This document shows positions 46,564-62,978 of a stretch of 62,978 nucleotides of DNA, piece after piece. The notes beneath the pieces were generated by a model. That model ran no database searches. It was given only the letters and a program-made list of their open reading frames with translations, and was not told the DNA's origin. Position 1 is the stretch's first letter; every line of letters starts with the position of its first letter. The DNA comes from Candidatus Methanoplasma glyptotermitis (lineage in GTDB: Archaea > Thermoplasmatota > Thermoplasmata > Methanomassiliicoccales > Methanomethylophilaceae). A program made the translations under genes and the position numbers. The stretch covers positions 1 to 62,978 of the forward strand of contig JAIRYF010000007.1 in NCBI GenBank assembly GCA_031267895.1, read 5' to 3'.

Positions 46564-47202
46564 GTGAAAATAGTGAAATGTGATTATGCGAATGGTTTTG
46601 ACCGAATATGCGAAGAGGCCGTCGCAGAAGCCGCTGAGGAGATCGCCGCGGGAAATCTCATTGTGTATCCAACCGAGACCGTCTATGGCATAGGTGCGGA
46701 TATATTCAATGAAGTTGCCGTCAAAAATCTCTATCTTGCAAAGAAAAGACCGTTCGATATGGCCCTGTCCGTGGCTGTCAGCGACAGGAACATGATGGAG
46801 AGCATAGCCATCCTGGATGAGAATGCGGATAAACTGGTAAGAGCTTTTCTCCCCGGTCCGCTGACGATGGTCATCGAGAAGAAGCCCGACATACCTGATA
46901 TGGTGACCGCGATGTCAAAAAAGGTTGGGATAAGGATGCCCGACCATCCCGTTGCGACGAAGATTGTGAAGAAGACAGGTCCTATAGTAGCGACATCAGC
47001 CAATCTTCATTCGCACCCGGACGCGACCGATACGAATTCGGCGGTCAGGGACCTGGGTCAATCGGTGAGTCTGTACATCGATTCCGGACCAAGCAAGCTG
47101 AAGAAACCCTCCACCATAGTGTGGATAGCGAACGGCGAGGTAGAGATAGCGAGGCAGGGTGCGATAACGGTCAAAGATATAGAGGAAGTAATCAATGCTT
47201 AA
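46564..47202 (+). CDS. tsaC: Threonylcarbamoyl-AMP synthase (Sua5/YrdC/TsaC)
   Basis: Makes threonylcarbamoyl-adenylate from threonine, bicarbonate and ATP for t6A at position 37 of ANN-decoding tRNAs. The 212 residues cover the YrdC domain: VYPTETVYGIGADI near 36-49, KKRPFDMALSVAV near 61 (the KxR...S/T binding site), PGPLTMVIEKK near 99, and VGIRMPDHP with ATSANLH near 142. No Sua5 C-terminal domain, so it is the short type. GTG start at 46564, right after the MBL stop. Overlaps map by 8 bases. Confidence 0.93.
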   Translation: MKIVKCDYANGFDRICEEAVAEAAEEIAAGNLIVYPTETVYGIGADIFNEVAVKNLYLAKKRPFDMALSVAVSDRNMMESIAILDENADKLVRAFLPGPLTMVIEKKPDIPDMVTAMSKKVGIRMPDHPVATKIVKKTGPIVATSANLHSHPDATDTNSAVRDLGQSVSLYIDSGPSKLKKPSTIVWIANGEVEIARQGAITVKDIEEVINA

Positions 47203-48085
47203 TGAAGAGGATCTTTTCAAACTGAGAAAAGCGGGAAAAGTGGCTGCGGCAGCAAGGTCCGCAGGAATAGACATGGTTAGAGAGGGCGCGAAACTGTACG
47301 ATGTTGCGCAGGAAGTCGAAGGATACATAAGATCAAAAGGCTGTGGCATAGCGTTCCCATGCAACATAAGCATCAACGAAGTTGCGGCTCATTATACTCC
47401 CTGCATCAACGACACCAAAGTCTTTGACAGAGGAGATGTTGTCAAAGTAGACTGCGGTGCCGAATTGGACGGATATGTGGGTGATACCGCAGGTACTGTC
47501 GAGGTCGGTACCAGAAGATACAAGGATATGATAGAGTCATCGAAACGCGCCAGGGACACCGTAGCAGAGTTCATAGGAGCCGGGACACCGATAGGAGAAA
47601 TCGGCAGAGCGGTTGAAATGAGTATGCATACGGACGGCTTCAAGCCTGTGCAGAATCTATGCGGACATCAGATAAAACCGTATGACCTGCATGCGGGACT
47701 TTCTATACCAAGCTACGATGACGGCAATGCAGAGAGACTTGTTCCGGGGATGGTAGTGGCGATCGAACCTTTCGCCACGAACGGCAAAGGAATGGTAACC
47801 GACGGTCCGCCGGGTAACATAGTGAAGATAATCAGAGAAAAGAAGCTTGTCGATCCCGGGGCGCAGGAGTTTTTCGAGTATGTAAAAGGGGAATTCAAAT
47901 CGTTCCCGTTCTGTGCCAGAAGCTGTGATTTCCCGAATTCCGAGAAGCACGTCAAGACTTTGCTGAGGCACGGTGTACTGTTAGGGTATACGCAGATGGT
48001 GGAGGGCGCGAAAGGAATTGTCACCCAGCACGAGCACACCTTCTACATAGCGGGAGAGAGGGCGGAAGTGACGACCCTTCCGTAA
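47195..48085 (+). CDS. map: Methionine aminopeptidase, type II
   Basis: Removes the initiator methionine from new proteins; 296 residues. The pita-bread metal ligands are visible: DCGAELDGYVGDTAGTV (Asp, Asp) near 85-101, NLCGHQI (His) near 153, AIEPFAT (Glu) near 188, and QHEHTFYI (Glu) near 278. The insertion between the ligands and GHQIKPYDLHAG mark type II, as in archaea and eukaryotes. Last gene of MBL-tsaC-map. Confidence 0.95.
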   Translation: MLNEEDLFKLRKAGKVAAAARSAGIDMVREGAKLYDVAQEVEGYIRSKGCGIAFPCNISINEVAAHYTPCINDTKVFDRGDVVKVDCGAELDGYVGDTAGTVEVGTRRYKDMIESSKRARDTVAEFIGAGTPIGEIGRAVEMSMHTDGFKPVQNLCGHQIKPYDLHAGLSIPSYDDGNAERLVPGMVVAIEPFATNGKGMVTDGPPGNIVKIIREKKLVDPGAQEFFEYVKGEFKSFPFCARSCDFPNSEKHVKTLLRHGVLLGYTQMVEGAKGIVTQHEHTFYIAGERAEVTTLP

Positions 48086-48123: not shown

Positions 48124-48208
48124 GCCGATGTTGCCAAGCCCGGTCAAAGGCGTCGGACTCAAGATCCGTTCTCGTAGGAGTTCACCGGTTCGAATCCGGT
48201 CATCGGCA
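48124..48208 (+). tRNA. tRNA-Leu (anticodon CAA), integration site
   Basis: Class II tRNA: acceptor GCCGATG / CATCGGC, anticodon loop CTCAAGA (anticodon CAA), long variable arm CTCGTAGGAG, T arm ACCGG-TTCGAAT-CCGGT, discriminator A. CC follows, but the final A of CCA is not encoded. A GTTTATCT TATA-like box lies about 35 bp upstream. Its 3' half overlaps the end of the integrase gene on the other strand, marking it as the attachment site of the element to the right. Confidence 0.95.
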
Positions 48209-49175
48209 CCTTTTCACTATAGCCAGCATCATTTTTTGTATCGCCTTTTCTGCCTGCGTTCGCATCCCATGTTCTCTTGGCTTTTTCGATCGCCTCCTTA
48301 TTTCTGCGACGGGCGTAAAACTTCTCTGTGGTGTTGGTGTTAGAATGCCCCATCAGCACAGATACGTTTTCGATATCCAATCCGTTATCAACATACTGCT
48401 GACCGAAAGTACGGCGGCACATCCTGAAATCAAAGCAGATACCGCATTCAGAAACAACAAGTTCCTTAATTGCCCTAAGACGGTTAGCCGAAAGGAAACC
48501 GTCATCAGAAGTAGGAGAGGGAAACAAAGCATCAGAACACGTTGAGCGGATTGCCATGTATCTCTGAAGAACAGAACGGAGAACATCAGGAACCGGAACG
48601 GTTCTAACAACTCCGTAAGAATTTTCCCCTTTGGGATGATTGATCGTAAATTCCCAATCAATCATATTAAGATCAGAAAACTTAGCAAGCCTCAGCTCCT
48701 TGGTACGGGTTCCGCAGAAAAGAAAGAGACCGACCATAGAATAAGCACGGAGATGGGTAAGATCGCCGGGAACATCCGAAAGCTTACGCCTGAAAATATC
48801 CAAGTCCTCCTTGGACATAGAAGGAAGACGGGGATTCCTCTGAATCGGACGGAGACCGGGATTTTTCCGGAGGCAGAACGCAACGGCGTTATTGTCGCAC
48901 CATTCGCAAAGCTGCTTAATGTACGTAACATCTTTAGAGAGTTCGGACTTGGAAAGACCAAGGCCCTTCCTATACAGAATGAATGACTTAATATCTTCCG
49001 GAGAAAGGTTCTGAGGAGATGAAGAAGATACCTTACCTTCCTGCCTGAGCATGCGAATATCCCGATCCATTCTTTTATAGCGTCTGCGAACACCTTTTAC
49101 GGTTATATCGGACCATATACCGGTCTGAGCAAGAAGATACTTCTCGGCAAATTCCATGAAAGGATACCTTGACAT
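48159..49175 (-). CDS. int: Tyrosine recombinase / integrase
   Basis: Site-specific recombinase of 338 residues. An N-terminal SAM-like core-binding domain (about 50-120: LSPEDIKSFILYRKGLGLSKSEL) precedes the catalytic domain with the first Arg in LFLFCGTRTKELRLAKF near 157, then FDFRMCRRTFGQQYVDNG near 255 (Arg present; the usual His of HxxR is Cys), VSVLMGHSNTNTTEKFYAR with His and the nucleophile Tyr near 290. The last residues, PMTGFEPVNSYENGS, are translated from the antisense of tRNA-Leu, so the attachment core lies within the 3' end of the gene. Last gene of the leftward operon. Confidence 0.92.
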   Translation of the reverse strand: MSRYPFMEFAEKYLLAQTGIWSDITVKGVRRRYKRMDRDIRMLRQEGKVSSSSPQNLSPEDIKSFILYRKGLGLSKSELSKDVTYIKQLCEWCDNNAVAFCLRKNPGLRPIQRNPRLPSMSKEDLDIFRRKLSDVPGDLTHLRAYSMVGLFLFCGTRTKELRLAKFSDLNMIDWEFTINHPKGENSYGVVRTVPVPDVLRSVLQRYMAIRSTCSDALFPSPTSDDGFLSANRLRAIKELVVSECGICFDFRMCRRTFGQQYVDNGLDIENVSVLMGHSNTNTTEKFYARRRNKEAIEKAKRTWDANAGRKGDTKNDAGYSEKVPMTGFEPVNSYENGS

Positions 49176-49364
49176 TTAGACATACCACCCTAGAATAGTG
49201 ATTTGACTCAGAAGATCCTCAAATAAGTCACAGGTAGAATCAAAAAGCATATCGATAAAATCCGAATATGTGCAGACGCTCCTGTCTTCCTCAGAAAGCT
49301 TCTCCAGTTCCTTATAAAGATCAGTCAAAAGCCGGTAGATATCGTCTATATCGGGAGCGGACAT
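49176..49364 (-). CDS. Small acidic protein, unrecognised
   Basis: 62 residues, strongly acidic and helical (YRLLTDLYKELEKLSEEDRS), no membrane helix. Starts one base after the stop of the upstream 60-aa gene and ends where the integrase begins, so it is translationally coupled. No family recognised; a regulator of excision is possible from position only. Confidence 0.6.
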   Translation of the reverse strand: MSAPDIDDIYRLLTDLYKELEKLSEEDRSVCTYSDFIDMLFDSTCDLFEDLLSQITILGWYV

Positions 49365-49541
49365 TCAGGCCACCCCCAGAGAGACTTCGTACGGATACAG
49401 GTACCCGAGATCCTCCAAGAACCTGAGATACGGGCGAATCTCGGAGAGAGGCAGAACAAAGCGTTCAGAAAGCCAATCATTACAGGAAGGATCGAACACC
49501 AGCACAAGATAATCACGGAGAACATCAGCAGATCCGGACAT
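49365..49541 (-). CDS. Small protein, unrecognised
   Basis: About 58 residues from ATG 49541 (a TTG at 49547 is two codons upstream). Contains DYLVLVFDPSCNDWLSERFV and PYLRFLEDLGYLYPYEV, compatible with a small globular domain. Sits between the exonuclease and the 62-aa gene with overlapping or abutting ends in the same operon. Function unknown. Confidence 0.6.
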   Translation of the reverse strand: MSGSADVLRDYLVLVFDPSCNDWLSERFVLPLSEIRPYLRFLEDLGYLYPYEVSLGVA

Positions 49542-49543
49542 AA

Positions 49544-50134
49544 TCAATCACCCATCCTGTAAAACCCTCTCCTGTACAGTTCAACAAGAACATGAGAAGC
49601 AACACGGGCATCCGAGAGGGCACGGTGATCCTGAACGCCGCCGATACGGGCGGGATCGTCAGGACACAGCACAGCATAAGCCTCTTCGAGTCTCGGCCAC
49701 TTGTTACCGTACGGCCCGGGAATCCTGCAGATGTTCATGGCAATGAGCATAGGATCGGGACAGACTTTAGAAACACAGGATTTGATATTATAAGGGGGAT
49801 GAACCAGAAACCTATCAAAATCGAATCCTACGTTGTAAGAAGTTACGAATTCGCAGGAAAGAATCTTAGAAATCTCTTTGGCAACTTCATCAGCCGGAGG
49901 AGCTGCAGAAACAGCCTCAAGAGTAAGATCGGTGTTGCTGAAAATCCATGCGTTCCTGTGAGCATCATCCCAAAGAGAGACATCATGCCCGACGATCGAG
50001 GAATAAACATCATCGATCTTTCCGGATTCCGGATTAACGGAACATATTCCGACATCGACAACATGATCACACGGATAACCGCGTAATCCGGTTGTTTCTG
50101 TATCAATCAGATATATCTCGGTCACGGTCAGCAC
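49544..50134 (-). CDS. DEDDh 3'-5' exonuclease, DnaQ-like
   Basis: About 196 residues. Exo I is IDTETTGL near 9-16, Exo II SYNVGFDFDRFL near 99-110, Exo III DHRALSDARVA near 168, with the His of the DEDDh type. Such proteins proofread, process or degrade DNA ends; in mobile elements they may trim replication or recombination intermediates. GTG 50134 overlaps the upstream zinc-ribbon stop; a second GTG at 50125 is better spaced from the GGAGG, so the start is uncertain by three codons. Confidence 0.88.
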   Translation of the reverse strand: MLTVTEIYLIDTETTGLRGYPCDHVVDVGICSVNPESGKIDDVYSSIVGHDVSLWDDAHRNAWIFSNTDLTLEAVSAAPPADEVAKEISKILSCEFVTSYNVGFDFDRFLVHPPYNIKSCVSKVCPDPMLIAMNICRIPGPYGNKWPRLEEAYAVLCPDDPARIGGVQDHRALSDARVASHVLVELYRRGFYRMGD

Positions 50135-50271
50135 CTCCAGAAAAAACTATTGCACGCACGGCAGTAATAAAAGCCGTTGGGTGCGGGACTGCAGACAGAA
50201 TCACATTTTGGGCACGACATCTCGCAGGAGAGATCATCACAGGAGAGATCATCGCAGGATTCGCAGATCAT
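50128..50271 (-). CDS. Tiny zinc-ribbon protein
   Basis: Too short for the ORF track: ATG 50271 to TGA 50128, 47 residues. Nine or more cysteines; the C-terminal half is a zinc ribbon (CPKCDSVCSPAPNGFYYC-RAC). The N-terminus has a tandem duplication CDDLS-CDDLS coded by a 15-bp direct repeat. Its ATG lies directly at the stop of the 85-aa gene and its stop overlaps the exonuclease start, so it is an integral operon member. May be a DNA- or RNA-binding small regulator. Confidence 0.65.
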   Translation of the reverse strand: MICESCDDLSCDDLSCEMSCPKCDSVCSPAPNGFYYCRACNSFFWRC

Positions 50272-50525
50272 TCAGAAGCCTCCCCATACTCGTCATACAT
50301 GTTCAGAAGGTCAAAATAAATTTCCGTCGCAAGGTCTTCGGCCCAGTCCCTAAGCTTGCGGTCTGCTTCCTGTTTGGATATTTTCTTGGCTTTCTCGAGC
50401 AGGTATTCATCGCGCGAAAGCGGATCGTCAATAGACTGAAGAGAATCATCAACGGACCATACATCCCGGCCGGCAGCAAGATAGAGAACATAGCCATCAA
50501 GATAGAACCCGTCGCCGGCGGACAT
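50268..50525 (-). CDS. Small acidic helical protein, unrecognised
   Basis: 85 residues; N-terminal part with GFYLDGYVLYLAAGRDVW, C-terminal part a charged helix (LEKAKKISKQEADRKLRDWAEDLATEIYFDLL). The ATG overlaps the previous stop (TAATG). No known family; soluble, likely a dimer or partner protein (inference from composition). Confidence 0.6.
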   Translation of the reverse strand: MSAGDGFYLDGYVLYLAAGRDVWSVDDSLQSIDDPLSRDEYLLEKAKKISKQEADRKLRDWAEDLATEIYFDLLNMYDEYGEASE

Positions 50526-50704
50526 TATTTCACCTCCAAGCGTGCCCGGGACCCGTCGGCCGAGACGGTGTACGAGCCGGTCAGGCCCATGCGTTCAAGG
50601 CGGTACTTAGCGTCTGCGAGTGTTGCAGAGTTAAGTATATCGTCTCTTTCGAAAGATAAGACGGAGGAGCCGCTGCTGCGGTCGAAAACGTAGACGGTTG
50701 ACAT
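50525..50704 (-). CDS. Small protein, unrecognised
   Basis: Below the ORF-track cut-off: ATG 50704 to TAA 50525, 59 residues starting MSTVYVFDRSSGSSVLSFER. Beta-rich with a central helix (SATLADAKYRLERMGL). It begins next to the parB stop and its stop overlaps the next ATG; the downstream gene is preceded by GGAGGTG at the end of this one. Function unknown. Confidence 0.6.
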   Translation of the reverse strand: MSTVYVFDRSSGSSVLSFERDDILNSATLADAKYRLERMGLTGSYTVSADGSRARLEVK

Positions 50705-52117
50705 TCAAACCGCCTCGCTGCTGTTCAGAACATCATAATCATCACGGCCGCCGGAGATATCATCGCCGGAGGTACCGCCGACCTCGTCGGATATCTTATC
50801 CGGAACCTTTTCAGGTTCATTTTTCTGAAGAACCGATAGATATTTGACTAGATCATCCGGAAGCTTATACTCAGAATGTTCTTCAGTAAAACGCTTAACA
50901 TATGATTCATGGATACACGAACAATCATAAGATCCGGTACAAGCATGGATAAGACTGTACATACAAAGAATATACGTCATATCAGAATACGAAATACCAT
51001 CATACAAAGCAAAAGCCGGATATTTCTTATTGAGGTCCTCTAAAAAATGCAGACGCTCAGAAAAGAAATGATCCAAAACTATCTCCATTCTCTTCTTGGA
51101 TGAGAATGAAAAAACTTTATCCTCGAAGAATGCAAACAGAGACTGAAGGGCATTCTCTTCAAGAACAGCCCTCTGACGGGAAGCAATCTGTTCAGGAGTT
51201 TCTGCATTATCGGCTTTACCTGCCTTACCAGAAGCTTTCTTTTCAGCCTTGATACGAGCCGCCTGAGAAGCAATAAGAGAATCCAAGCAGGACTTATCAA
51301 GACAATAACTACAGAAATATTTAGGACAATGATAACACTGTTCAGACTCCTTGGCAAAACCCAGATAACAATCGGGATTGTAAACAAAACCAAGGGATTC
51401 ATCAGAAGCAACACTGGGAAAAACCTCACAGAACACAGCATCAAGCTTCTTAACAGGAATAGGACATCCGTCAGAATCAATATTTTTCTGATTAACAGAA
51501 GAATACTGTTTAAGAGCCTCATCAAAAAGAGGCTTGCCATACTTCTTGAAAGTCATAAACTCGAATGCATGCGACGGATTTATTTCACGTGAAATAATCA
51601 TGTCTTTAAGAATTTCCGGAAATTCCAAAAGACGGATACGGTTAGAAATGTATTCCTGAGATTTACCGATACGTGAAGCGAGATCCTCTTGAGTCATACC
51701 GCAATCCAGAATTTTCCTGAGCCCGATAGCTTCTTCAATGGGATTAAGATCCATTCTGTGGAGATTTTCGGACATCATAATCTCGAAGAATTCCGATTCG
51801 GTGAGTTCGTCGTAGACGGCACATACAACGTAAGACATATCAAGAGCTTTAGCGGCCATAAGCCTTCTTTCGCCGGATATGAGTTCGAAGTACTTTTCCT
51901 TCCTGAGAAGGATAGGAGGTTCAAGGATACCGTTAACCCTGACATTCTCGATAAATCCGGCCATGGATTCTTTGGAGAAGTCTTTACGGACGTTGGAACC
52001 GAATTCGATATCAATCAAAGAAACAATCTCATAGACCGGATGCTTTACTTCGGATACAACACAGGAAACAGCCTCCGGAGAGGCTGTTTTTGCTTTCTTG
52101 GTTTTTGCAGAAGCCAT
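50705..52117 (-). CDS. parB: ParB-family DNA-partition protein with zinc-cluster insertion
   Basis: 470 residues. N-terminal CTPase domain with IEFGSNVRKDF near 35, the ISGERRLMAAKAL box near 76-88 (GERR binds nucleotide) and MMSENLHRMDLNPIEEA near 112-128. The HTH is MTQEDLASRIGKSQEYISNRIRLLEFP near 138-164, as in chromosomal ParB/Noc. This is followed by an unusual cysteine cluster (CYHCPKYFCSYCLDKSC near 262-278) and a Lys/Ala-rich linker. No ParA is encoded in the window. Two 16-bp palindromes of parS type, one inside this gene, are its likely binding sites. Coupled to the small upstream gene (TGATG overlap). Confidence 0.9.
   Translation of the reverse strand: MASAKTKKAKTASPEAVSCVVSEVKHPVYEIVSLIDIEFGSNVRKDFSKESMAGFIENVRVNGILEPPILLRKEKYFELISGERRLMAAKALDMSYVVCAVYDELTESEFFEIMMSENLHRMDLNPIEEAIGLRKILDCGMTQEDLASRIGKSQEYISNRIRLLEFPEILKDMIISREINPSHAFEFMTFKKYGKPLFDEALKQYSSVNQKNIDSDGCPIPVKKLDAVFCEVFPSVASDESLGFVYNPDCYLGFAKESEQCYHCPKYFCSYCLDKSCLDSLIASQAARIKAEKKASGKAGKADNAETPEQIASRQRAVLEENALQSLFAFFEDKVFSFSSKKRMEIVLDHFFSERLHFLEDLNKKYPAFALYDGISYSDMTYILCMYSLIHACTGSYDCSCIHESYVKRFTEEHSEYKLPDDLVKYLSVLQKNEPEKVPDKISDEVGGTSGDDISGGRDDYDVLNSSEAV
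51581..51596. promoter_or_regulatory. parS-like palindrome inside parB
   Basis: TATTTCACGTGAAATA, a perfect 16-bp palindrome. It differs from the bacterial parS consensus TGTTTCACGTGAAACA only at positions 2 and 15, and has the outer bases of the Noc site (ATTTCCCGGGAAAT). An identical copy lies at 55787. Confidence 0.8.
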
Positions 52118-52326
52118 CAGATAACACCCCTGACGGTTTCACGGGCAAAGTATTCATCAATCATATCCTGAACATATTCCGGCGGGGAACCGTCAGAAAG
52201 AGGTTCGAAGATTACCGACCGATTGCACAAAGTGCAGGTTCTTGCTCTGGCCGGTCTGCCGGAAGGAATCCGGAACAGCGGACACTTGTAAGCCCTGTCG
52301 TTACTAACGACGGCGGGGCCGTTCAT
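52117..52326 (-). CDS. Small cysteine-containing protein, unrecognised
   Basis: First gene of the leftward operon. The tracked start at 52344 lies inside the TATA box GGTATAAAAATG (52353-52342), so I prefer ATG 52326, about 26 bp downstream, as a leaderless start; this gives 69 residues starting MNGPAVVSNDRAYKCPLF. Cys pairs (KCPLF, TCTLC) suggest a treble-clef or zinc finger. Overlaps parB at TGATG. Function unknown; autoregulator is a possibility. Confidence 0.6.
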   Translation of the reverse strand: MNGPAVVSNDRAYKCPLFRIPSGRPARARTCTLCNRSVIFEPLSDGSPPEYVQDMIDEYFARETVRGVI

Positions 52327-52353
52327 ACACATTATTTTTATCATTTTTATACC

Positions 52354-52413
52354 ACTCTCAAGCCCACTAAGAGAGTTTAAGGCGGCAGTACGTGTGAGCT
52401 GAGTACTGCCGCC
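52354..52413. repeat. Inverted repeats between divergent operons
   Basis: ACTCTC / GAGAGT (52354-52359, 52371-52376) just upstream of the leftward TATA box, and a perfect 10-bp repeat GGCGGCAGTA / TACTGCCGCC (52381-52390, 52404-52413) with a 13-nt spacer. The second may be a terminator-like hairpin or a regulator site. Confidence 0.6.
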
Positions 52414-52462
52414 CCAGAGGTCCTGAGTTAAGGAGGAACTGCTAGCGGACCAGGTAGCAACA

Positions 52463-52531
52463 GTCTAGCGAAGGCTTTATCAAATATTAAAATATATCTA
52501 CGCTAGACCATAGCTTTATCAATAATTAAAA
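52463..52531. promoter_or_regulatory. Operator-like repeats upstream of the RHH gene
   Basis: GTCTAGCG (52463-52470) and CGCTAGAC (52501-52508) form a perfect 8-bp inverted repeat; interleaved with it, GCTTTATCAAATATTAAAA (52474-52492) is repeated as GCTTTATCAATAATTAAAA (52513-52531). The second copy sits about 30 bp before ATG 52558 and doubles as a TATA box. Likely bound by the RHH protein encoded downstream (autoregulation, inferred). Confidence 0.6.
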
Positions 52532-52557
52532 ATTGAAAAGGACTACATAGAAACCAT

Positions 52558-52797
52558 ATGGCTGATCGTTCGATGCAACAGATAAACATAAAGTGTCCAA
52601 CAGGGATAATCGAACTAATTGACAAAGACATACAAGAAAATCAAGAATTCCGGAACAGATCAGAATACATGCTTGCAGCGTTAAGATATTACATTGATCA
52701 CAGAACAAAAACGCTGGCCGAACGAAAAATCACAAATCAAACAGAAGAAAAAGACTTCATCAAAAACCCGGCAGGGGGGGGGGGTCAGCAACTTTGA
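52558..52797 (+). CDS. Ribbon-helix-helix (CopG-type) regulator ending in a poly-G tract
   Basis: 79 residues. The RHH fold is clear: strand QQINIKCP near 7-14, helix GIIELIDKDIQ, then FRNRSEYMLAALRYYIDHR (RSEY is the typical helix-2 start). The C-terminus NPAGGGGQQL is encoded by an 11-G tract 14 bp before the stop, so slippage would change the tail and the stop position: one G fewer stops at 52808-52810, one more at 52839-52841. Gene and neighbour are AT-rich compared with the rest. Probably leaderless. Pairs with the membrane nuclease downstream, perhaps as its repressor or antitoxin. Confidence 0.85.
   Translation: MADRSMQQINIKCPTGIIELIDKDIQENQEFRNRSEYMLAALRYYIDHRTKTLAERKITNQTEEKDFIKNPAGGGGQQL
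52774..52784 (+). repeat. 11-G homopolymer tract at the end of the RHH gene
   Basis: Eleven G coding the GGGG of the RHH tail; fifth long G tract in the window and the only one at a 3' end and inside the element. Confidence 0.8.
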
Positions 52798-52822
52798 TGA
52801 ACTACGTTAATGCTTATTTCTA

Positions 52823-53668
52823 TTGGACCGGATTAAGATAAATCTGAAAACAAACCAAAAACGATTTTATGATAGACTTAGGAGGAATTCTATCAAAAAA
52901 ATATCAAAAGATATAAGAGGAAGCGAAGAAACAGAATTCGCCGGAGTCGTATTAATCATTGCAGTAATAGCAATCATAATATTAGCTATGGCAGGCCATC
53001 ATATGGCAGCAATAGCAATTGGAATCTTAATAATCATGGCGGTTCTGCTCGTATTCGCACTGACAGAAGAATCTACTAAAGAGACTGCTTACGATTCATA
53101 TCAGAAAAGAACCAACGAAGAAATAAAGGCAAAACCAACAGCCGATAAGCCGGACGAATCCGAAAAGAAAAACAAGACAGAATCCCCAACCAAAGATAAA
53201 GAAGAATATCATTACAACCAAGACCTCGGAAGGTTAGGCTGGGAATTCGAACAGCACACAAAAATGATGTTTCCGGAAGAAAAATTCGAAGTAATGCACG
53301 AAAGCGCACATCCGACAGATGATTCCACACCGCTGGAAAAATGGAAACCCGACCTATGTTTAAAAGACAAAGAGACAGGTAAAATATTCTGGATCGAATG
53401 TAAATACATAAGCAACTGGACAGATGAAACATTTCAATGGACAGACCAAAAACACCTCGATAACTACAAAAAAAGCAGATATCAGACAAGACAAAAACAT
53501 TTTGTATGTATCGGATTTGGAAAAAATCCAGCTGAACCGGACAAAATAGCAATGATAAATCTAGATCACATTCGATATCCGGATATGACAGAATATTTTT
53601 ACAAAAGCCACGCAATAGATCCCAACAGCAATTACAATTCATACCAAGAATTATTTCAAACAAAATAA
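52823..53668 (+). CDS. Membrane-anchored PD-(D/E)XK nuclease-like protein
   Basis: 281 residues from a TTG at 52823 (no good ATG exists; an AGGAGG near 52881 lies inside the frame, so the start is uncertain). Basic N-terminus, then two hydrophobic helices (VVLIIAVIAIIILAMAG and MAAIAIGILIIMAVLLVFAL, about 41-80), a Lys/Glu-rich linker, and a C-terminal nuclease-like domain: GRLGWEFEQHTKMMF, WKPDLCLKDKETGKIFWIECKYI with the PD...ExK triad near 178-198, then a QYxx-type segment. Related to restriction-like endonucleases (Mrr/VSR type fold). AT-rich codons point to recent acquisition. A hairpin terminator follows. Could be a defence or toxin effector held at the membrane. Confidence 0.75.
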   Translation: MDRIKINLKTNQKRFYDRLRRNSIKKISKDIRGSEETEFAGVVLIIAVIAIIILAMAGHHMAAIAIGILIIMAVLLVFALTEESTKETAYDSYQKRTNEEIKAKPTADKPDESEKKNKTESPTKDKEEYHYNQDLGRLGWEFEQHTKMMFPEEKFEVMHESAHPTDDSTPLEKWKPDLCLKDKETGKIFWIECKYISNWTDETFQWTDQKHLDNYKKSRYQTRQKHFVCIGFGKNPAEPDKIAMINLDHIRYPDMTEYFYKSHAIDPNSNYNSYQELFQTK

Positions 53669-53694
53669 TCCTTCAAATAATTACCATCCCCTAA

Positions 53695-53717
53695 CCCCTT
53701 CCTGCAGCAGGAAGGGG
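53695..53717 (+). terminator. Hairpin terminator after the nuclease gene
   Basis: Perfect 10-bp stem CCCCTTCCTG / CAGGAAGGGG with a 3-nt loop. Confidence 0.7.
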
Positions 53718-53732
53718 AAACACCCGAACCAG

Positions 53733-54698
53733 GAACAGCCGACCGTACCGGCCGGCTGTTCCCACCCAGACCAAAAATAAAAGTTAAAACTAGGTGATAC
53801 ACCCAATCCACTATGCTATGCAAGACCTCGGATAAAATCTCTGTCCGCTCACGCTGGAGATTTCCCTGATTGTCTTACTCCGCTCCGTTCCACTCTTAAT
53901 CAATAAGAGCACACCACACCAATCACCCAGACCTTGTAACACCCGTACCTATTCTTGAGCCGCCTATCTTCGTCCGCAAGCGGACGAGGCGGCTAACCAA
54001 GTTTTAATCGGAATTGTTTTGTCCGATCCTTCGATCCGGAACAGTTTCCGGCTCGCTCAGTAAATTGATCTTGCCCTGCATGCAGATGGCTTTGCCATTG
54101 CTTCCGGGATTCTGCTACCGCCGCCGATGCCTGCCCTCCGCGCGCAGAGCGCGCGGAAATATTCGGTCCGGTCCCGGCTTATCCTGTTCATACATTCCCG
54201 GGCCGTCTCCGAAGACTTCAGCCGGGCGATCCGCTCCGCGTCCCGCCGGCGGTTGGGATAACCGTATCTCTGCGTGCGTTCACGCCCGCTGTTCTCCGGA
54301 CAGATCCGCCGCTTATCGGTTCCCGCGACATCCGCCGGATGCGATCTGGTCCTGCTGTGCCGGCAGGATGCCGTACATGTCTCCGGACTGTACGGCTCAG
54401 CTGCAATCTGTTCCACGGCCGTTCCTGCCGGAACGGCCTTCCTGCAAGATACCGGCTGACACGGATCCAGTCCGTTTCCCGGATCATTTCAATGTATTTT
54501 TAGACCTCCGGCCGACCCCTCAGAGACGACGGCGTACCGCACATATCGAGATTTGCTTTTTGTATTTCCGTGCGTGTGATTGCGTCCCTCCGGGAACTTG
54601 CGGCCTGCAGCCGCACCGCTTACGCGGCCTCCGGCCGCTCCGCGGAGAACGCCCCTACTCAGGAGATACATAGACACACAGAACACACCAGAACGGAA
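53733..54698. other. Gene-poor, hairpin-rich GC segment; candidate replication origin region
   Basis: Nearly 1 kb without a gene I can support, sharply GC-rich in contrast to the AT-rich nuclease cassette. Perfect hairpins: GAACAGCCG / CGGCTGTTC (53733, 53753), GTCCGC-AA-GCGGAC inside GCCGCCT / AGGCGGC (53959-53993), CCGCGCGC-AGA-GCGCGCGG (54138-54156), GGCCGTTCC-TGCC-GGAACGGCC (54417-54438), and GCGGC-CTGCA-GCCGC with GCGGCC-TCC-GGCCGC near 54600-54640. Such stem-loops are what HUH Rep proteins nick or what complementary-strand origins use. Long frames here (54014-54673 plus; 54057-54416 and 54218-54487 minus) are rich in Arg/Pro and conflict with one another. Confidence 0.45.
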
Positions 54699-54891
54699 AG
54701 GGGAAAAGCGAGAGAGAAGGAGAGAAGAAGAAAAAAAAGTGAGAGATAACTAAGAGAAATAATGTAGGTGCGCATAAAGACAAGGTTTTAAGTCTTTAGC
54801 ACGCACGGAATACATAAAAACAAATCATCGTAAGGCAGAACGCCTCAGTTCGCCTCAAGGGGTCAGCCCCTTAGGAGGTGAAAAAATAACA
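54699..54891 (+). promoter_or_regulatory. Purine tract, hairpins and ribosome-binding site upstream of the winged-helix gene
   Basis: A nearly pure-purine stretch of about 60 nt (54695-54755, AGAGAGAAGGAGAGAAG...), then an interrupted hairpin GTGCG..AAAGAC / GTCTTT..CGCAC (54768-54806), then AAGGGG-TCAG-CCCCTT (54857-54872) directly abutting the ribosome-binding site TAGGAGGTG before ATG 54892. The placement suggests post-transcriptional control. Confidence 0.5.
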
Positions 54892-55410
54892 ATGAAAAAG
54901 ATCACAAGGGAAATGGACGAGGAATCCGTGAAAGCAGCCGATATCCTGACAAGGACAGAACAGATATGCATATGTCTGAGCCGGTACAGCTACAATCCGG
55001 GCGACAAGTACAACATCCCTTGGGCAACGACGCAGGACGGGATCGCTCTGCAGATCGGATCGTCGCGGGAAAGGATAAGCGGCTTAAAGAAGAAATATCC
55101 GGATCTGTTCGAAGAACGCCTAGGGCACACGAACTCACGCTGTCAGAGATATGGTTATCTTCTGACGCCGGCGGGGCAGAAAGTCGCGGAATCCGCCAAG
55201 GCGAAGCTCCGTGAGAACGGCATAAACCCGGAGAATGTATTCATTCTTCAGGATAAACCGGAGACACGGGACCTCAATCTTCTGAGCGCGCTGAGATACG
55301 CGCGGAAGGCCTTAGAAGATTTGGAGGCATCGGCGGGGGAAAAACGCAGAATCGAGGAAGCGATAGGCAACCTTGCGGACGCCATCAAATATGCATGCCA
55401 GGTAAGATAA
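54892..55410 (+). CDS. Winged-helix DNA-binding protein
   Basis: 172 residues. An N-terminal winged-helix domain (about 18-100: ADILTRTEQICICLSRY, then TTQDGIALQIGSSRERISGLKKKYPDLFEERL with the recognition helix IGSSRERISGLKKK, and GYLLTPAGQKVAES as the wing) resembles archaeal MarR/Lrs14-like regulators. A charged C-terminal helix (LLSALRYARKALEDLEASAGEKRRIEEAIGNLADAI) probably dimerises. Likely the main transcriptional switch of the element. Strong AGGAGGTG site; GC content close to host average. Confidence 0.8.
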   Translation: MKKITREMDEESVKAADILTRTEQICICLSRYSYNPGDKYNIPWATTQDGIALQIGSSRERISGLKKKYPDLFEERLGHTNSRCQRYGYLLTPAGQKVAESAKAKLRENGINPENVFILQDKPETRDLNLLSALRYARKALEDLEASAGEKRRIEEAIGNLADAIKYACQVR

Positions 55411-55492
55411 TTTTTTTTAGCTCGCTGAAGCAGTTCCCAGATCGAATATGTTCATCCAGATTAAAGGATAACTGTAGATCTGCCGTTTTATA

Positions 55493-55519
55493 CATAATCG
55501 AGATAATCAATCGATTATG
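55493..55519. promoter_or_regulatory. Inverted repeat covering the start codon of the 60-aa gene
   Basis: CATAATCGA (55493-55501) and TCGATTATG (55511-55519), perfect, 9-nt spacer. The right arm ends in the ATG of the next gene and TTTTATAC lies just upstream, so a bound protein would block transcription start of a leaderless mRNA. Confidence 0.7.
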
Positions 55520-55699
55520 TCAAACGGCATAGATGAACAGATAGAGGAATTATACCATAGAATAATGGATGAAACAGAATCCTATGATTTTGAGATAGGA
55601 ATAAAAACAATTTCCATGATAATGAACAATTACACAGAAGCAATGCTGGAAATGATAGAAGAATCGAAAGAAGAATTGAAACAAAGAGAAACGATTTAA
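55517..55699 (+). CDS. Small acidic helical protein, unrecognised
   Basis: 60 residues, almost entirely helical and acidic (IDEQIEELYHRIMDETESYDF, MLEMIEESKEELKQRE). Leaderless start inside the operator-like repeat and a strong terminator at the end show a dedicated, tightly controlled transcript. No family recognised; acidic small proteins of this kind in mobile elements are often partners or DNA mimics, but that is speculation. Confidence 0.65.
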   Translation: MSNGIDEQIEELYHRIMDETESYDFEIGIKTISMIMNNYTEAMLEMIEESKEELKQRETI

Positions 55700-55724
55700 G
55701 CCGGGCCAAAAGCCCGGCATTTTT
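55700..55724 (+). terminator. Hairpin terminator
   Basis: GCCGGGC / GCCCGGC (55700-55706, 55712-55718) with loop CAAAA and ATTTTTAT after it. Confidence 0.8.
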
Positions 55725-55786
55725 ATGAGATCCTGACTCCATCAATCTTTATATGCTGTTTTGCAAATATCCGGAAAAATCAAAAT

Positions 55787-55802
55787 TATTTCACGTGAAA
55801 TA
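55787..55802. promoter_or_regulatory. Second parS-like palindrome
   Basis: TATTTCACGTGAAATA, identical to the copy in parB at 51581, in the AT-rich non-coding stretch between the 60-aa gene and the end of rep. Confidence 0.8.
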
Positions 55803-55908
55803 TTTTATACGATTTTATGCGGATTTTGATAAAAACATCACATTTTGAACGATTTTCAATCATTTTTCGGAAAAAATTAAGAATTTCTGCATAGCTTACG
55901 CTATGCAG

Positions 55909-57357
55909 TCATGCAGAGGAGCGTTTTTTCATCAATTTGGAAGCGGTCGCGACCCGGGGATTGTCTTCATAGTACTGCAGCAGATAGTACTTGATTACAT
56001 CCTCTTCTTTGCCCTCATCCGAAAGAACCTGTTTAAGATCGGCAACTTCTAGGCGGATAACATCCAGATCTTTGGGAAGGCAAAATACCTGAGTTCTCCT
56101 GGAGAAAATCACAGGATCCTTTTCAGGCCTGAGATAAAAAACCGGAAGGTCGCACGTCTTGCATTGCTTTTGAGCTGCAGTCTCGATAATATCGATTCTG
56201 CGAAGCTTACCGTGACTGAGACCGCCGAAAAGACGGAACGCCTTAAGCTGACGGCCGAGAGCCGTCTTACGCACAGGAACAGCCAAACCGACATGTGAAA
56301 GAATGTAAGAAACGGTTCCGGCAAGAGAACGTTCTTCCTCGGAGTCGATCATCTTGACGATCCATCCCGTTTCCTTGAAAATCAAAGAAGTATCCGAATC
56401 AATACGGCCCCAGCAGATAAGATGAAAATGAGGAGCAGCACGCCACACATAAGATGGAAGCTTATTACCGCTGTCTGCTACATCGTCCTTATTGCGTCTC
56501 CAGGGATGCAGTGCTATAAGCCCGGTTTTCAGGCCCATTTTATGGGCCATCTCAACGGCCATGCCGTAAAGCTTATCGAGACCCTCCTTAGTCTGAATAA
56601 GACCGCGGGCAACGTCCTGAGGAGGAGAAAAAACAACGTGGCGCCAATCCTGACCTATTATCATATCCTGAAGAACCTGATAGGCCTCGCTGCGTTCCTC
56701 GAACTCGCGCGCCTTGCGTTTAGCCCAGGCGGTAGCGCAGCGCGTACACCCCGGACGCCAGCAGTGCAGAGCAGAAGTTTCCAGGTGGCACCAATTATCG
56801 CAGTACTCCTGAAGGAAATGTCCCTTATACAGACCGTCCTTAATCTTCAGATACCCGCAGTAATCACCCGGACGGCCTCTGTAAGGAACAGTCCACGTCA
56901 GAGGCGTAAGTTTGCCGTCTTTGGACTTTGCAAGTTTTGCTGTCCGGGGGGACACTGAAGGCATTGAGAAGAGGTAATCACTATAGGCAGGATTATAGGG
57001 ACTTTTAGGGCCGTACCCGTTCCGCCGAACCTCATAAGAAGGGCATTCCTCGAGTGCTTTCTGCTCGGTCTGAAGGGCAAGATGATACTTCATGTAATCA
57101 GAAGAGGTAGGAATCTTATGCCGAAGAATGTACTTACGGGAAAAGAAAGAAGGATCTGCGAGACCTCCGATATGCTCAAAAATACCGTTCCTTACAAACT
57201 CAACTTCTGAATTTTCATCCTCGGCATTAGCACGGCCCACACGGTCCATAATCTCGGGAAGCTGCCTGTGATAGACAGCTAAATGATGTTCACTGCGGGA
57301 TGCCTCGTCCATGAAAGAACGGAATGAGGATACGCTTATCGGCTCGGGAACAGTCAT
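55909..57357 (-). CDS. rep: HUH-superfamily rolling-circle replication initiator (Rep)
   Basis: About 482 residues from ATG 57357 (GTAGGTG lies eight bases upstream; the tracked GTG 57366 is less likely). A Cys/His cluster (CDNWCHLETSALHCW, CTRCATAW, about 188-215) precedes motif 1 DWRHVVFSPPQD near 240; motif 2 is the HUH metal site PHFHLICWG near 315; motif 3 is YILSH near 355 with a single catalytic tyrosine. A further Cys pair (CKTCDLP) follows. This order matches Rep proteins of haloarchaeal small plasmids and pleolipoviruses. It nicks the origin and starts rolling-circle replication. Last gene of the long leftward operon. Confidence 0.88.
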   Translation of the reverse strand: MTVPEPISVSSFRSFMDEASRSEHHLAVYHRQLPEIMDRVGRANAEDENSEVEFVRNGIFEHIGGLADPSFFSRKYILRHKIPTSSDYMKYHLALQTEQKALEECPSYEVRRNGYGPKSPYNPAYSDYLFSMPSVSPRTAKLAKSKDGKLTPLTWTVPYRGRPGDYCGYLKIKDGLYKGHFLQEYCDNWCHLETSALHCWRPGCTRCATAWAKRKAREFEERSEAYQVLQDMIIGQDWRHVVFSPPQDVARGLIQTKEGLDKLYGMAVEMAHKMGLKTGLIALHPWRRNKDDVADSGNKLPSYVWRAAPHFHLICWGRIDSDTSLIFKETGWIVKMIDSEEERSLAGTVSYILSHVGLAVPVRKTALGRQLKAFRLFGGLSHGKLRRIDIIETAAQKQCKTCDLPVFYLRPEKDPVIFSRRTQVFCLPKDLDVIRLEVADLKQVLSDEGKEEDVIKYYLLQYYEDNPRVATASKLMKKRSSA

Positions 57358-57441
57358 TTTTTTCACCTACTCGCTGAAAAAAGATTTGGAAAAGCAAACG
57401 ATCGGCTGGGTCCCGGCCGATGGCTCGGGACCGCCGCCCAT

Positions 57442-57756
57442 TTATTTGACAGAAGACGGGCGGGGTTCCCGGAGATCTGTAACGGCCGGTTCAGAGGATC
57501 CGGAAAGATGATACAGACGGGACGGATGGGAAGCACGGGATAACGCCTGCCTGGCCGACTCGGCCGCAATCGATGAAAGAACCGACGAGACCAGCGGGTT
57601 GGAATCGATACCCCAAAGAAGACAGAACTCTTTTCTGGGGATAACCGAAGGATCATCCGACAATGCGACTTCCCGGGGAAGCGGTATGCCGGATGCGATA
57701 TCGTACGACGCGAACCGCTTAAGGTCCTGATCGATGAATACCATGGGTTCGCTCAT
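57442..57756 (-). CDS. Small protein, unrecognised
   Basis: 104 residues (MSEPMVFIDQDLKRFASYDI...). The segment DPSVIPRKEFCLLWGIDSNPLVSSVLSSIAAES suggests one helical domain; no membrane helix. ATGA overlap with the ATPase stop indicates coupling. Position between ATPase and Rep; function unknown. Confidence 0.65.
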   Translation of the reverse strand: MSEPMVFIDQDLKRFASYDIASGIPLPREVALSDDPSVIPRKEFCLLWGIDSNPLVSSVLSSIAAESARQALSRASHPSRLYHLSGSSEPAVTDLREPRPSSVK

Positions 57757-58385
57757 ACGGTACCCTCCCTGCGATCCGGAACAGAATTACGGAGATAGTG
57801 GGAATGAATCCCGTGGATCCACCATGCCGGAGGATCCATGATAACTATCTCATCGTTATCCGCACAGTATGAAAAAGAACGCTGATCATATCCGGGACGG
57901 GAAGCAATAGCTTTCCTGATACGGAGATTGGCGGTAACTTGGAGAGGCCGGAGTTCCTCCCTTTCGAAACGTAAATCAACATCCCAAACAAGTTTATGAA
58001 GAAGAATAACGCGCTGCGTTCTGAAGAAATCAATATCCAGTATCGCAGTGCTCTGAACACTCAGCAAAACAACAATATCCTTATGGCTGATAAGGGAAAC
58101 CCACCCGGAGAGGGCAGCCTGTTTCTGCGAACCCCTGGCAGGAAACAGACGGCCGACATCTTCGACGACGAGGAGAGAACCGGGCGGAACATCCCATACG
58201 GTCTTAACAACCGAATATCCGGGGAAAAGAGAATTATCAAAATCGTACGTCTCCAGGATATAACGGGGACGGTCGGAGAAGAACCTGTCGGAAAGGGAGA
58301 ACAGCAGCGTACTCTTTCCCGTCTTACCGGAACCGACAACGATTATAACGCCGTGCTTCATAGATAAAAGATCATCCTTTATCAT
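57753..58385 (-). CDS. P-loop ATPase, Zot/FtsK-HerA-like
   Basis: 210 residues from ATG 58385, seven bases after GGAGG within the preceding gene. Walker A is VVGSGKTGKSTLLFSL near 16-31, Walker B GSLLVVEDVGRLFP near 70, and a sensor-like KDIVVLLSVQST near 100. The small domain resembles the cytoplasmic ATPase part of Zot/pI proteins of filamentous phages and the small NTPases of pleolipoviruses. Unlike Zot/pI it has no membrane helix; the membrane protein encoded just upstream might supply it. Probable role: virion assembly or extrusion. Confidence 0.8.
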   Translation of the reverse strand: MIKDDLLSMKHGVIIVVGSGKTGKSTLLFSLSDRFFSDRPRYILETYDFDNSLFPGYSVVKTVWDVPPGSLLVVEDVGRLFPARGSQKQAALSGWVSLISHKDIVVLLSVQSTAILDIDFFRTQRVILLHKLVWDVDLRFEREELRPLQVTANLRIRKAIASRPGYDQRSFSYCADNDEIVIMDPPAWWIHGIHSHYLRNSVPDRREGTV

Positions 58386-59049
58386 CCGAAACCTCCTCTT
58401 CAGCGAAATTAACCGGCTTGGCGGTTCTCGGATCATCGTTCAGGACATCGGAAACAAACGCCTTATTCACATGATCCGAAACCATACCGAGAGTCTGGGC
58501 AAGCCAATCAGACAGTTCCTTCATAGGTTCCCTGGCAACAATAGAGCCGTAAATTAACGGATAATTCTTCAGACGGACATTATCGATCATGGCTGCCTCG
58601 GCAGCCTCATACCATTCAAGGTAAGTTGCACGGTCAGCAGCAACCCTTAACGGGGAATATTCGGTAAGCCATCCGTAACTGATTTTTTTGTCTTTATCGT
58701 CAAAACCGTTGGCAATGTACACGGGATAACCCATAAAAGAAGTACAGCAGGCAGGGGCCTGAGGCTGATTATACTGTCCGAATGACTCTTCCGGAATCCA
58801 GATTAAACGTATCTTAATAAGATCCTTAGGAACAACAAGAACAAAGCGGCCCACAGGCTGAAGCAGAAATGAAGCGATAATCCATCCAAGAAGTATACCG
58901 GCAACGAAAGCCTCGACCGTCTCGGTATCGGTATACTGGGAACCGAATACGATTACACCTAAAACAAGGAGAATAAGCAGCGCAGACTTGATACGCCGGG
59001 CACTGTGCGCAAGGATATCCCATTTGGTACGTCCGACCTGGAAATCCAT
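58372..59049 (-). CDS. Membrane protein with two N-terminal helices and a soluble domain
   Basis: 225 residues. Two hydrophobic helices (SALLILLVLGVIVFGS and FVAGILLGWIIASFLL, about 22-65) followed by a cytosolic or external domain of about 150 residues (VPKDLIKIRLIWIPEESFG...). No known family. Its end overlaps the ATPase start region; together they could form the two-part equivalent of a pI/Zot assembly protein (inference). Confidence 0.75.
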   Translation of the reverse strand: MDFQVGRTKWDILAHSARRIKSALLILLVLGVIVFGSQYTDTETVEAFVAGILLGWIIASFLLQPVGRFVLVVPKDLIKIRLIWIPEESFGQYNQPQAPACCTSFMGYPVYIANGFDDKDKKISYGWLTEYSPLRVAADRATYLEWYEAAEAAMIDNVRLKNYPLIYGSIVAREPMKELSDWLAQTLGMVSDHVNKAFVSDVLNDDPRTAKPVNFAEEEVSDDKG

Positions 59050-59150
59050 CAGAACACATCCTCAGGGGATCCGCGGTGTTTTCTGTTAAAACGGTAAATC
59101 ATAACACCGAACAGAACGCCGGCACCGAAAACGATTACCAGAGTGGTCAT
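59049..59150 (-). CDS. 33-residue single-helix membrane protein
   Basis: Below the ORF-track cut-off: ATG 59150 to TGA 59049. MTTLVIVFGAGVLFGVMIYR is one membrane helix, then a basic tail FNRKHRGSPEDVF. Overlaps both neighbours (ATGA upstream, TGATG downstream), so it is part of the operon. Comparable in size to the minor coat proteins pVII/pIX of filamentous phages. Confidence 0.65.
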   Translation of the reverse strand: MTTLVIVFGAGVLFGVMIYRFNRKHRGSPEDVF

Positions 59151-59329
59151 TTACGGAAAACCCCCATAGCAAAGTACAGACCGGCAGCAAATCCTATCAC
59201 CGTGGTAACGGCAATACCGCGGATGGTACCGACTCCGAACCAATCTTTGAGATAGTAAGACATCCAGCCGGCAGCCAGAAGGAGACCGAGACCGGTAATA
59301 ATACGGCGGGTACGGAGTATCAGAGCCAT
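59147..59329 (-). CDS. 60-residue two-helix membrane protein
   Basis: Start ATG 59329 (MALILRTRRIITGLG), not the tracked 59422. Two hydrophobic helices (IITGLGLLLAAGWMSYYL and GIAVTTVIGFAAGLYFAMG) with a short loop containing KDWFGVG. Overlaps the upstream gene by 10 bases and the downstream by 4. Candidate structural or assembly protein. Confidence 0.7.
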   Translation of the reverse strand: MALILRTRRIITGLGLLLAAGWMSYYLKDWFGVGTIRGIAVTTVIGFAAGLYFAMGVFRK

Positions 59330-59574
59330 GGACGGCGGCCCCCTGAACCGGGACGGGGAGGTATTGCAAAAGAAACAATAAACCAAATCCAGCAAAACCC
59401 GAGAACAATGAACATCCAGCATCCATCGATGAATTGGGTAAGCGTTGTTCCAAACTCAATACTGTCCAGAAGGTTCTCGATCTGAGAAACAGCATCGCCG
59501 GTAGCTTTGGCTGTAAGCCAGTCAGCAGCAATGCCAATGAACATAGCAACAACACCGATAGCAGCCCAGATCAT
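59320..59574 (-). CDS. 84-residue membrane protein
   Basis: Start ATG 59574 (MIWAAIGVVAMFIGIAADW), following GTGGGGGCGGA and touching the previous stop. One N-terminal helix, an amphipathic middle (ATGDAVSQIENLLDSIEFGTTL), and a second helix (FIVLGFCWIWFIVSFAI) ending in PRPGSGGRRPWL. No family recognised. Confidence 0.7.
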   Translation of the reverse strand: MIWAAIGVVAMFIGIAADWLTAKATGDAVSQIENLLDSIEFGTTLTQFIDGCWMFIVLGFCWIWFIVSFAIPPRPGSGGRRPWL

Positions 59575-59801
59575 CAGTTCCGCCCCCACTTTTTCAGCTG
59601 GTAGCGGACACTCCAAGCCAAAAAGAACGTACCGCCGAAGAACAGAAGAATGAACCATTCGTTGAAGAACAGTTCGAACAAATCATCCCACGTACTCGGT
59701 ATGTAAATTCCTTCATCGGCAGCGGAAGACATACCGGCAGTAAGGACAAACAGCAACACAGACGCAGAACCGACGAGACCGAGAACGGTAAGCAATCTCA
59801 T
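59574..59801 (-). CDS. 75-residue signal-peptide membrane protein, major-coat-protein-like
   Basis: Start ATG 59801 (MRLLTVLGLVGSASVLLF). Predicted signal peptide with cleavage after GMSSA, leaving about 50 residues: acidic N-terminus (ADEGIYIPSTWDDLFELF), one membrane helix (WFILLFFGGTFFLAW) and a basic C-terminus (RYQLKKWGRN). This is the same order and size as the mature major coat protein pVIII of filamentous phages (acidic, hydrophobic, basic, about 50 residues). Similarity is in architecture, not sequence identity. Start and stop overlap neighbours. Confidence 0.7.
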   Translation of the reverse strand: MRLLTVLGLVGSASVLLFVLTAGMSSAADEGIYIPSTWDDLFELFFNEWFILLFFGGTFFLAWSVRYQLKKWGRN

Positions 59802-60070
59802 TTGGACCACCCGGAAGGACGCATCGAGGCAGTGATACACAAAGAAAGAATCACAGACAGAATGAGAACAGAGGAGCCGATGGCAAGCCAGAACGCCCAA
59901 TCCGGAATAACGCCGATCCTTTCTGCGATTGATATAACAATCGGAGAATCGACACCGCCGGAGATGTGTTCGCCGATACCGGCACCGGAAACAATCCAGA
60001 ACAGGGTATCCAGAAGAAGAAATCCGGTAAGGACAGCAGAAATAACGGCAAGCCAGCTTACCCGCTTCAT
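59798..60070 (-). CDS. 90-residue two-helix membrane protein
   Basis: Start ATG 60070 (MKRVSWLAVISAVLTGFLLLDTLFW), overlapping the previous stop. Two hydrophobic helices flank an external loop (GAGIGEHISGGVDSPIVISIAERIG); the end SMRPSGWSK is basic. Unrecognised; part of the small-membrane-protein block typical of enveloped or filamentous virus operons. Confidence 0.7.
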   Translation of the reverse strand: MKRVSWLAVISAVLTGFLLLDTLFWIVSGAGIGEHISGGVDSPIVISIAERIGVIPDWAFWLAIGSSVLILSVILSLCITASMRPSGWSK

Positions 60071-60471
60071 CTCTGATACCTCTTCTTGCTGAAATCCAAT
60101 CCGACGGAATTCTTTACAGCCCACGAGGTACGCCTGATCTTGCGGCGGATCCATGATATTATCAAGATAACAACGATCGCAGCAACGATCAGAAGAATAA
60201 CAGAAGCGGACCATTCCGGAATCTTCATGGTACCCGCAATCAGCCTGACCAAACCGCCGTTCAGAATGTACAGACCGAAAGCACCGCCGATACCGACTTT
60301 GAGGGCATTGCCCCAGGTAAGGACACGTCCGCCGGCGCGAGCCATAGCCGACGGCATAGTTGTAGCAATGCTAGTAACTCCTTTTCCGGAGGTGATTGTT
60401 TTTGTTGTTGTGAACATCTTTCCGCTCTTAAAAAAAGACAAGAAACGGCTAAGAAGGCCGACAGAAGCCAT
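60067..60471 (-). CDS. 134-residue membrane protein
   Basis: Start ATG 60471 (MASVGLLSRFLSFF), overlapping the spike stop. A long Thr/Ser/Gly segment precedes a glycine-rich hydrophobic stretch (GIGGAFGLYILNGGLVRLI) and a strong helix (ASVILLIVAAIVVILIISW) followed by a very basic tail (RRKIRRTSWAVKNS...KKRYQR), which could contact nucleic acid on the inner side. Unrecognised. Confidence 0.7.
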   Translation of the reverse strand: MASVGLLSRFLSFFKSGKMFTTTKTITSGKGVTSIATTMPSAMARAGGRVLTWGNALKVGIGGAFGLYILNGGLVRLIAGTMKIPEWSASVILLIVAAIVVILIISWIRRKIRRTSWAVKNSVGLDFSKKRYQR

Positions 60472-62651: not shown

Positions 62652-62652
62652 T

Positions 62653-62978
62653 TTACCACCTGATGAAGATACAGCCGACAAAAACCGCAGCAAAAGCGAT
62701 AATCAAAATCGCCCAATACGAAATTCCGGCTATTTCTCTGAACCAAAAGTTTTGTTCTCCGTCTCCGTTTCCCGGATCGGTACCCGTACCGGTGTACGTC
62801 CACTGGGCGTACAGTACGGCGTTCTCGGTCGGATTGATTACATCCCCGGGATGCAGAAGATCGCCTGCGTCGCTGAGTTTCCATCCGGCAAACGCATGAT
62901 CGGCCGGAGGCGTAAGCGTACTGTTCAGCAGTTCGTACGGAGACCCGGATACGACACTGACGGCGAACATGTGACCGA
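62653..62978 (-). CDS. C-terminal part of a second membrane-anchored surface protein
   Basis: The frame is open to the window edge, so only about 108 residues are visible. An InlB-type repeat (HAFAGWKLSDAGD..AVLYAQWT) is followed by a Gly-rich linker and one hydrophobic helix (AILIIAFAAVFVGCIFI) near the end RW. The stop TAA lies two bases before the spike ATG, and the AGGTGG at its end is the spike's ribosome-binding site. The ORF-track ATG at 62970 is probably internal. Confidence 0.7.
   Translation of the reverse strand, partial: GHMFAVSVVSGSPYELLNSTLTPPADHAFAGWKLSDAGDLLHPGDVINPTENAVLYAQWTYTGTGTDPGNGDGEQNFWFREIAGISYWAILIIAFAAVFVGCIFIRW

Follow-up and report, generated by a model that had tools for sequence, protein, structure and literature searches.

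In the Myxococcus phage Mx8, the attachment site attP lies within the coding region of the integrase gene, and integration gives this gene a new 3′ end while the full enzyme is kept (Tojo et al. 1996; Magrini et al. 1999, as described in PMC4383910 and PMC6070905). The integrase gene of the E. coli prophage DLP12 overlaps the tRNA gene argU, according to the title of Lindsey et al. 1989 as listed in PMC2629481. For archaeal integrases, two arrangements have been reviewed, one in which the gene is split ("suicidal") and one in which it is unchanged (PMC8371274). Here we describe an integrated element of Candidatus Methanoplasma glyptotermitis, an archaeon whose gene content looks Methanomassiliicoccales-like; the element begins in a stretch of 62,978 bp (contig JAIRYF010000007.1, below called the window). 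The window is the complete contig C72 of a 72-contig genome (G000), and its end is the contig end. We consider it very likely that this is a tRNA-targeting element with attP inside the 3′ end of int, the integrase gene that it carries, that the tail of int is replaced on integration, and that this swap is most likely a tolerated by-product. The principle is already known from the bacterial phage Mx8; the present case is an archaeal example with unusually clear comparative data.

The features of the locus are collected in Table 1. The int gene converges on tRNA-Leu(CAA) and reads its antisense strand, as an earlier note on this DNA had claimed. That note gave the overlap as 16 codons and 51 bp; the codon count stands, but the overlap measures 52 bp (48159-48210), which covers 16 codons and the int stop plus a single further base. 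The antisense strand of the tRNA T-arm encodes the C-terminal peptide of Int, MTGFEPVNSYENGS. In annotation, C-termini of the 'GFEP/GIRT' type are thus explained as host tRNA read backwards, and tRNA-encoded C-terminal residues should not count as part of the protein family.

Table 1. Positions of int, its target gene, and the attachment site features in the window
Feature	Position	Strand	Basis
int, tyrosine recombinase, 338 amino acids when integrated	48159..49175	-	Open reading frame (ORF), Pfam, alignment of 10 relatives
tRNA-Leu(CAA), target gene, intact in attL	48124..48210	+	ARAGORN; orthologous tRNA-Leu downstream of the methionine aminopeptidase gene (MetAP) in same-genus genomes
Type II methionine aminopeptidase-like gene, chromosomal left flank	47195..48085	+	Named by inspection; adjoins tRNA-Leu across the genus
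Host-derived int end: 12 codons GFEPVNSYENGS + stop, from antisense tRNA-Leu, integrated state only	48159..48197	-	attL/attR comparison
CTGGCTA (+ strand TAGCCAG), int-side (P′) motif copy; encodes GY of AGYSEK	48220..48226	-	Motif count over 51 elements
37-bp core shared by attL and attR without mismatch, entirely within the int coding region	48197..48233	.	attL/attR comparison
Integrated element, in-window part, 14.8 kb	48197..62978	.	Plus at least 1.27 kb on C34:1-1275

Int has both a Pfam domain above the curated cut-off and the catalytic Arg, Lys, Arg, His, and Tyr of a tyrosine recombinase. A Pfam scan placed PF00589 at residues 140-291 (E = 6.9e-17, 62.2 bits against a cut-off of 27.1) and gave this family alone; PF16795 (Phage_integr_3), the domain of the SSV-type archaeal integrases (PMC8371274), was not found. 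In the alignment with 10 relatives, R157, K182, R254, H277, and Y287 are invariant, as is R255. The box-II His position of int (residue 251) aligns to Arg, and this Arg is nearly invariant in the present integrase family. Int is not the archaeal chromosomal XerA, since it scores 58.6 bits with the NCBIfam model recomb_XerA_Arch, for which the cut-off is 220.

The earlier note had suggested looking for attR to the right of position 62978. A genome search with 161 bp around the tRNA end located it on another contig of the same genome, at C34:1271-1316 (L006), as a 46-bp copy of 48193-48238 with 96% identity and 2 mismatches. The 19-mer offered in that note for the search matches exactly at the window copy alone, because attR is without the T-loop, and a longer DNA query was needed. 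No second core copy was found within the window. Of the 37 bp that are identical in attL and attR, 14 bp are the end of the tRNA and 23 bp are int sequence beyond it; together they occupy int codons 315-327. To the right of attR, C34 carries crcB, uS13, uS4, uS11, and rpoD (named by inspection of translations), while the 1.27 kb to its left is different DNA, with small ORFs on the minus strand. The element-free order MetAP-tRNA-Leu-crcB-uS13 is uninterrupted in two same-genus genomes (L040 and L050), and in six further ones the tRNA-Leu block is followed directly by uS13. Since crcB or uS13 directly follows MetAP-tRNA-Leu in the element-free genomes, the right side of C34 is the true continuation of the chromosome, and the element spans from the tRNA on C72 through C34:1275.

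The two sides of the attachment site were joined by script. The integrated Int ends in YSEKVPMT followed by GFEPVNSYENGS, and the circular Int is predicted to end in YSEKVPMT followed by VFSFSEPSIFYHSSIFAPARSFDFSLPLGGGF; the residues shared before the swap point are NDAGYSEKVPMT. The reading frame is open across the core in both configurations. In attL, no in-frame stop intervenes between the catalytic Tyr and 48161, and in the circle none precedes the end of the 32-residue tail. The ends diverge after residue 326, with tails of 12 residues when integrated versus 32 when circular, which also differ in composition. The swap point comes after Y287 and after all conserved columns. The earlier note had proposed that the attachment core is part of the int coding region, against which an attR core lacking the int 3′ part would speak, and that recombination could swap the C-terminus after the catalytic Tyr. 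Both proposals agree with what was found, as the 37-bp identical stretch is wholly inside int, and the joined sites give different ends past Y287. One refinement is needed: the last 12 codons lie outside the core, and they change because they are host tRNA sequence beyond it. We infer that the enzyme stays active after the swap, because relatives without such a tail look intact.

This geometry, with the core inside int, a frame that is open on both sides, and different tails, is that of Mx8. As with Mx8 IntP, the attachment site is within int, integration gives a new 3′ end, and the enzyme stays whole. However, Mx8 is a bacterial phage, whereas the present element is archaeal and takes its tail from the antisense of its target tRNA-Leu. 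DLP12 is similar, as far as its title goes, in that the integrase gene overlaps the occupied tRNA gene, but its integrase is a lambdoid bacterial one. With the archaeal type I (SSV-type) elements, the present element shares an attachment site inside int (PMC8371274); unlike there, where int is split, only the last ~12-32 residues change here and the catalytic domain is whole. We rejected splitting of the SSV type, as the integrated int is a single 338-amino-acid frame with all conserved residues. In the archaeal type II elements (pNOB8, SNJ2), int is also whole after integration into a tRNA gene (PMC8371274, PMC13107129), but there it is unchanged, while here integration replaces the 3′ end, and the last 12 codons come from the host. 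The present arrangement is thus intermediate between the split and the unchanged archaeal ones, with the attachment site in an expendable gene end, so that int and its site travel together and the enzyme is not destroyed.

We suggest the following mechanism. attP would be situated within the 3′ end of the element's own int, and strand exchange would take place in the final ~14 bp of tRNA-Leu (T-stem/acceptor). The inverted motifs CTGGMTA and TAKCCAG bracket this region, one on either side, ~13-19 bp away from the core. In its circular form, int would cross the core into element DNA and end with 32 residues, and the attP junction would read GGTGCCGATGACCG joined in frame to TATTTAGC. In the chromosome, it crosses the core into antisense tRNA-Leu and ends with 12 residues. 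The catalytic domain would be whole in both forms. The int gene and its DNA site would be packed one on the other, and the arrangement would arise from this packing.

Related integrases are present in 40 of 151 relatives; 59 were examined, of which 51 face a detected tRNA. With the elements aligned on the tRNA 3′ end, 43 of the 51 show CTGG, usually as TCTGGMTA, at a distance of 9-20 bp outside the tRNA, compared with 1/51 in control windows. In a further six, AGCCAGA or something close to it takes its place. These six, with the int-side motif in the opposite orientation, target Leu-TAA, Met, Asn, and Ser tRNAs. An inverted CCAG occurs 13-19 bp from the core on the element side of attR in 12/14 relatives and in the present element, where it is 19 bp beyond the core (~1250-1256 in L006). 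The pair CTGGMTA / TAKCCAG keeps a near-fixed distance regardless of where int stops. Since the motif is kept at coding and noncoding positions alike, it is a feature of the DNA, and we think that the two copies are probably integrase-binding sites. Where int reaches the tRNA, the motif falls in the coding region and gives a recurrent GY[AV]-stop, or GYS here; in the present element, the stop adjoining the motif has been lost, and translation continues into the tRNA. The position of the int-side motif inside the coding sequence explains why the attachment site and the int 3′ end stay together.

The overlap between int and the tRNA is atypical for the family. The int stop is in or past the tRNA in 6/51 elements (G000, G086a, G032a, G032b, G003a, and G111), 0-8 bp before it in 10/51, and 36-389 bp before it in 35/51. 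On a maximum-likelihood tree, the 'inside' state requires at least three changes. With the motifs fixed and the int stop found ahead of the tRNA, at its edge, or within it, the family is a good set for studying the origin of attachment sites within int. Apparent overlaps in L010 and L014 were rejected, as there is an in-frame stop ahead of the tRNA. For 13 other elements, an attR match was obtained that is significant or exact, and their cores lie from about -8 to +21 relative to the tRNA 3′ end; longer core matches occur in the tandem cases G061f and G040. We counted neither the attR call for G085 (10 bp, E = 2) nor that for G115 (8 bp, E = 3); taken by themselves, those for G102 and G118 (13 bp, E = 0.03) are weak. 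Two other overlapping elements for which both att ends are available swap tails as well when the sites are joined, G086 with IRTLEPLRTGS and PNHQSFQLLTHSNEFRPFAAFCRA at a 17-bp core and G111 with GFEPEFQAWQA and ARDSDSIQKYIS at a 16-bp core. In G101, the stop abuts the core, and the tail does not change.

Genome G032 has two integrases that are 94% identical in DNA and carry different tRNA-encoded tails, GGIRTHGTLSTGS from tRNA-Leu(TAA) and DGVRTHDLRISLEEVCRPEPYESDAPPG from a second, intron-containing tRNA gene, which we read as tRNA-Met and which ARAGORN, with introns allowed, calls Ser. This pair (L061 1816-1960 and L060 8569-8654) is a natural case of target switching. Contig G032:C30 was considered as a free form and rejected; there, a ribosomal protein gene comes next after int has crossed the tRNA with the intron, so this is an integration in another tRNA. 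In G003, a related integrase (L063:783-1850) has no facing tRNA and is followed by an opposite-strand gene that by eye is integrase-like.

What does the tail do? We think that the swap is probably neutral and the tail dispensable. We take the swap to be tolerated rather than used because tails vary from element to element, many relatives have none, and the tail comes after A299, beyond which the alignment has no conserved column. It could instead be a regulatory switch, in which the two forms of Int differ in activity or stability and so give the reaction a direction, as for Mx8. The geometry is shared with Mx8, whose new 3′ end altered the behavior of the integrase, and the unlike lengths and compositions of the two tails would fit such a role. 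However, the circular tails of the present element, G086, and G111 are unrelated to each other, the tail has no conserved residues, and relatives with the same catalytic domain end well ahead of the core and cannot swap. We therefore regard a switch as unlikely. Similarly doubtful is the broader idea of an archaeal integrase family that gets its C-terminus from host tRNA, so that a change of target means a new tail, and in which the circular versus integrated tail sets the direction or timing of recombination.

Some points do weigh against a tolerated swap at an attP within int. The argument for neutrality is one from variability, and the account of Mx8 in PMC6070905 indicates that a swapped tail can change integrase behavior. 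The assembly contains attL and attR alone, and a circular form was not observed; viral-contig and species-genome scans gave no confirmed relative, and terminal repeats are absent from contigs G003:C9, G032:C30, G030:C48, and G075:C101. The element is split over two contigs, with the join of C72:62978 to C34:1 unassembled. Furthermore, the identity runs 23 bp past the tRNA, so the crossover within the 37 bp is not fixed by the sequence.

A second alternative is that the element is an immobile remnant and that the overlap was made by decay of the int stop codon. Indeed, the present int lacks the stop with which the GY[AV]-stop relatives end directly ahead of the tRNA. In addition, the chromosomal side of attR (L006:1275-1316) matches the int end, motif included, for 23 bp beyond the tRNA; most simply, this copy would be a scar left there when a related element integrated earlier at this tRNA. 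Among relatives, the motif copy on the chromosomal side of attR is absent in G086 and present in G061, G040, and G073; in G061, a second integrase is immediately past attR, as in a tandem array. Against a remnant speak a full-length Int that has all conserved residues, a core that is identical on both sides, and the presence of both flanking motifs, and we find it improbable. That the true int end is earlier and the tRNA-encoded codons are untranslated, as 35/51 relatives that stop before the tRNA and a GY peptide explained by a conserved DNA motif rather than by protein selection might suggest, is most improbable, since with no in-frame stop in either configuration, any ribosome that translates int has to run on into the antisense of the tRNA.

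Circularization would place int upstream of the far-end genes (window 55909-62976, minus strand, and L006 1-1041, minus strand) and in the same direction, as in SNJ2, where excision joins int to co-directional far-end genes (PMC13107129). The first far-side ORF of at least 100 amino acids is co-directional with int in 11/15 elements. The minus-strand genes at 55909-57366, 57753-58436, and 60471-62693 of the window possibly encode an HUH-type replication protein (with APHFHLICWG), a P-loop ATPase, and a large surface protein with a signal peptide and transmembrane segment, which is accompanied by small membrane proteins. This set of genes suggests a pleomorphic-virus-like provirus; family searches gave no firm match. 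A few genes from the integration site, the window also encodes a predicted surface protein of 2516 amino acids (38247-45797, plus strand), with leucine-rich and InlB-like repeats recognized by eye.
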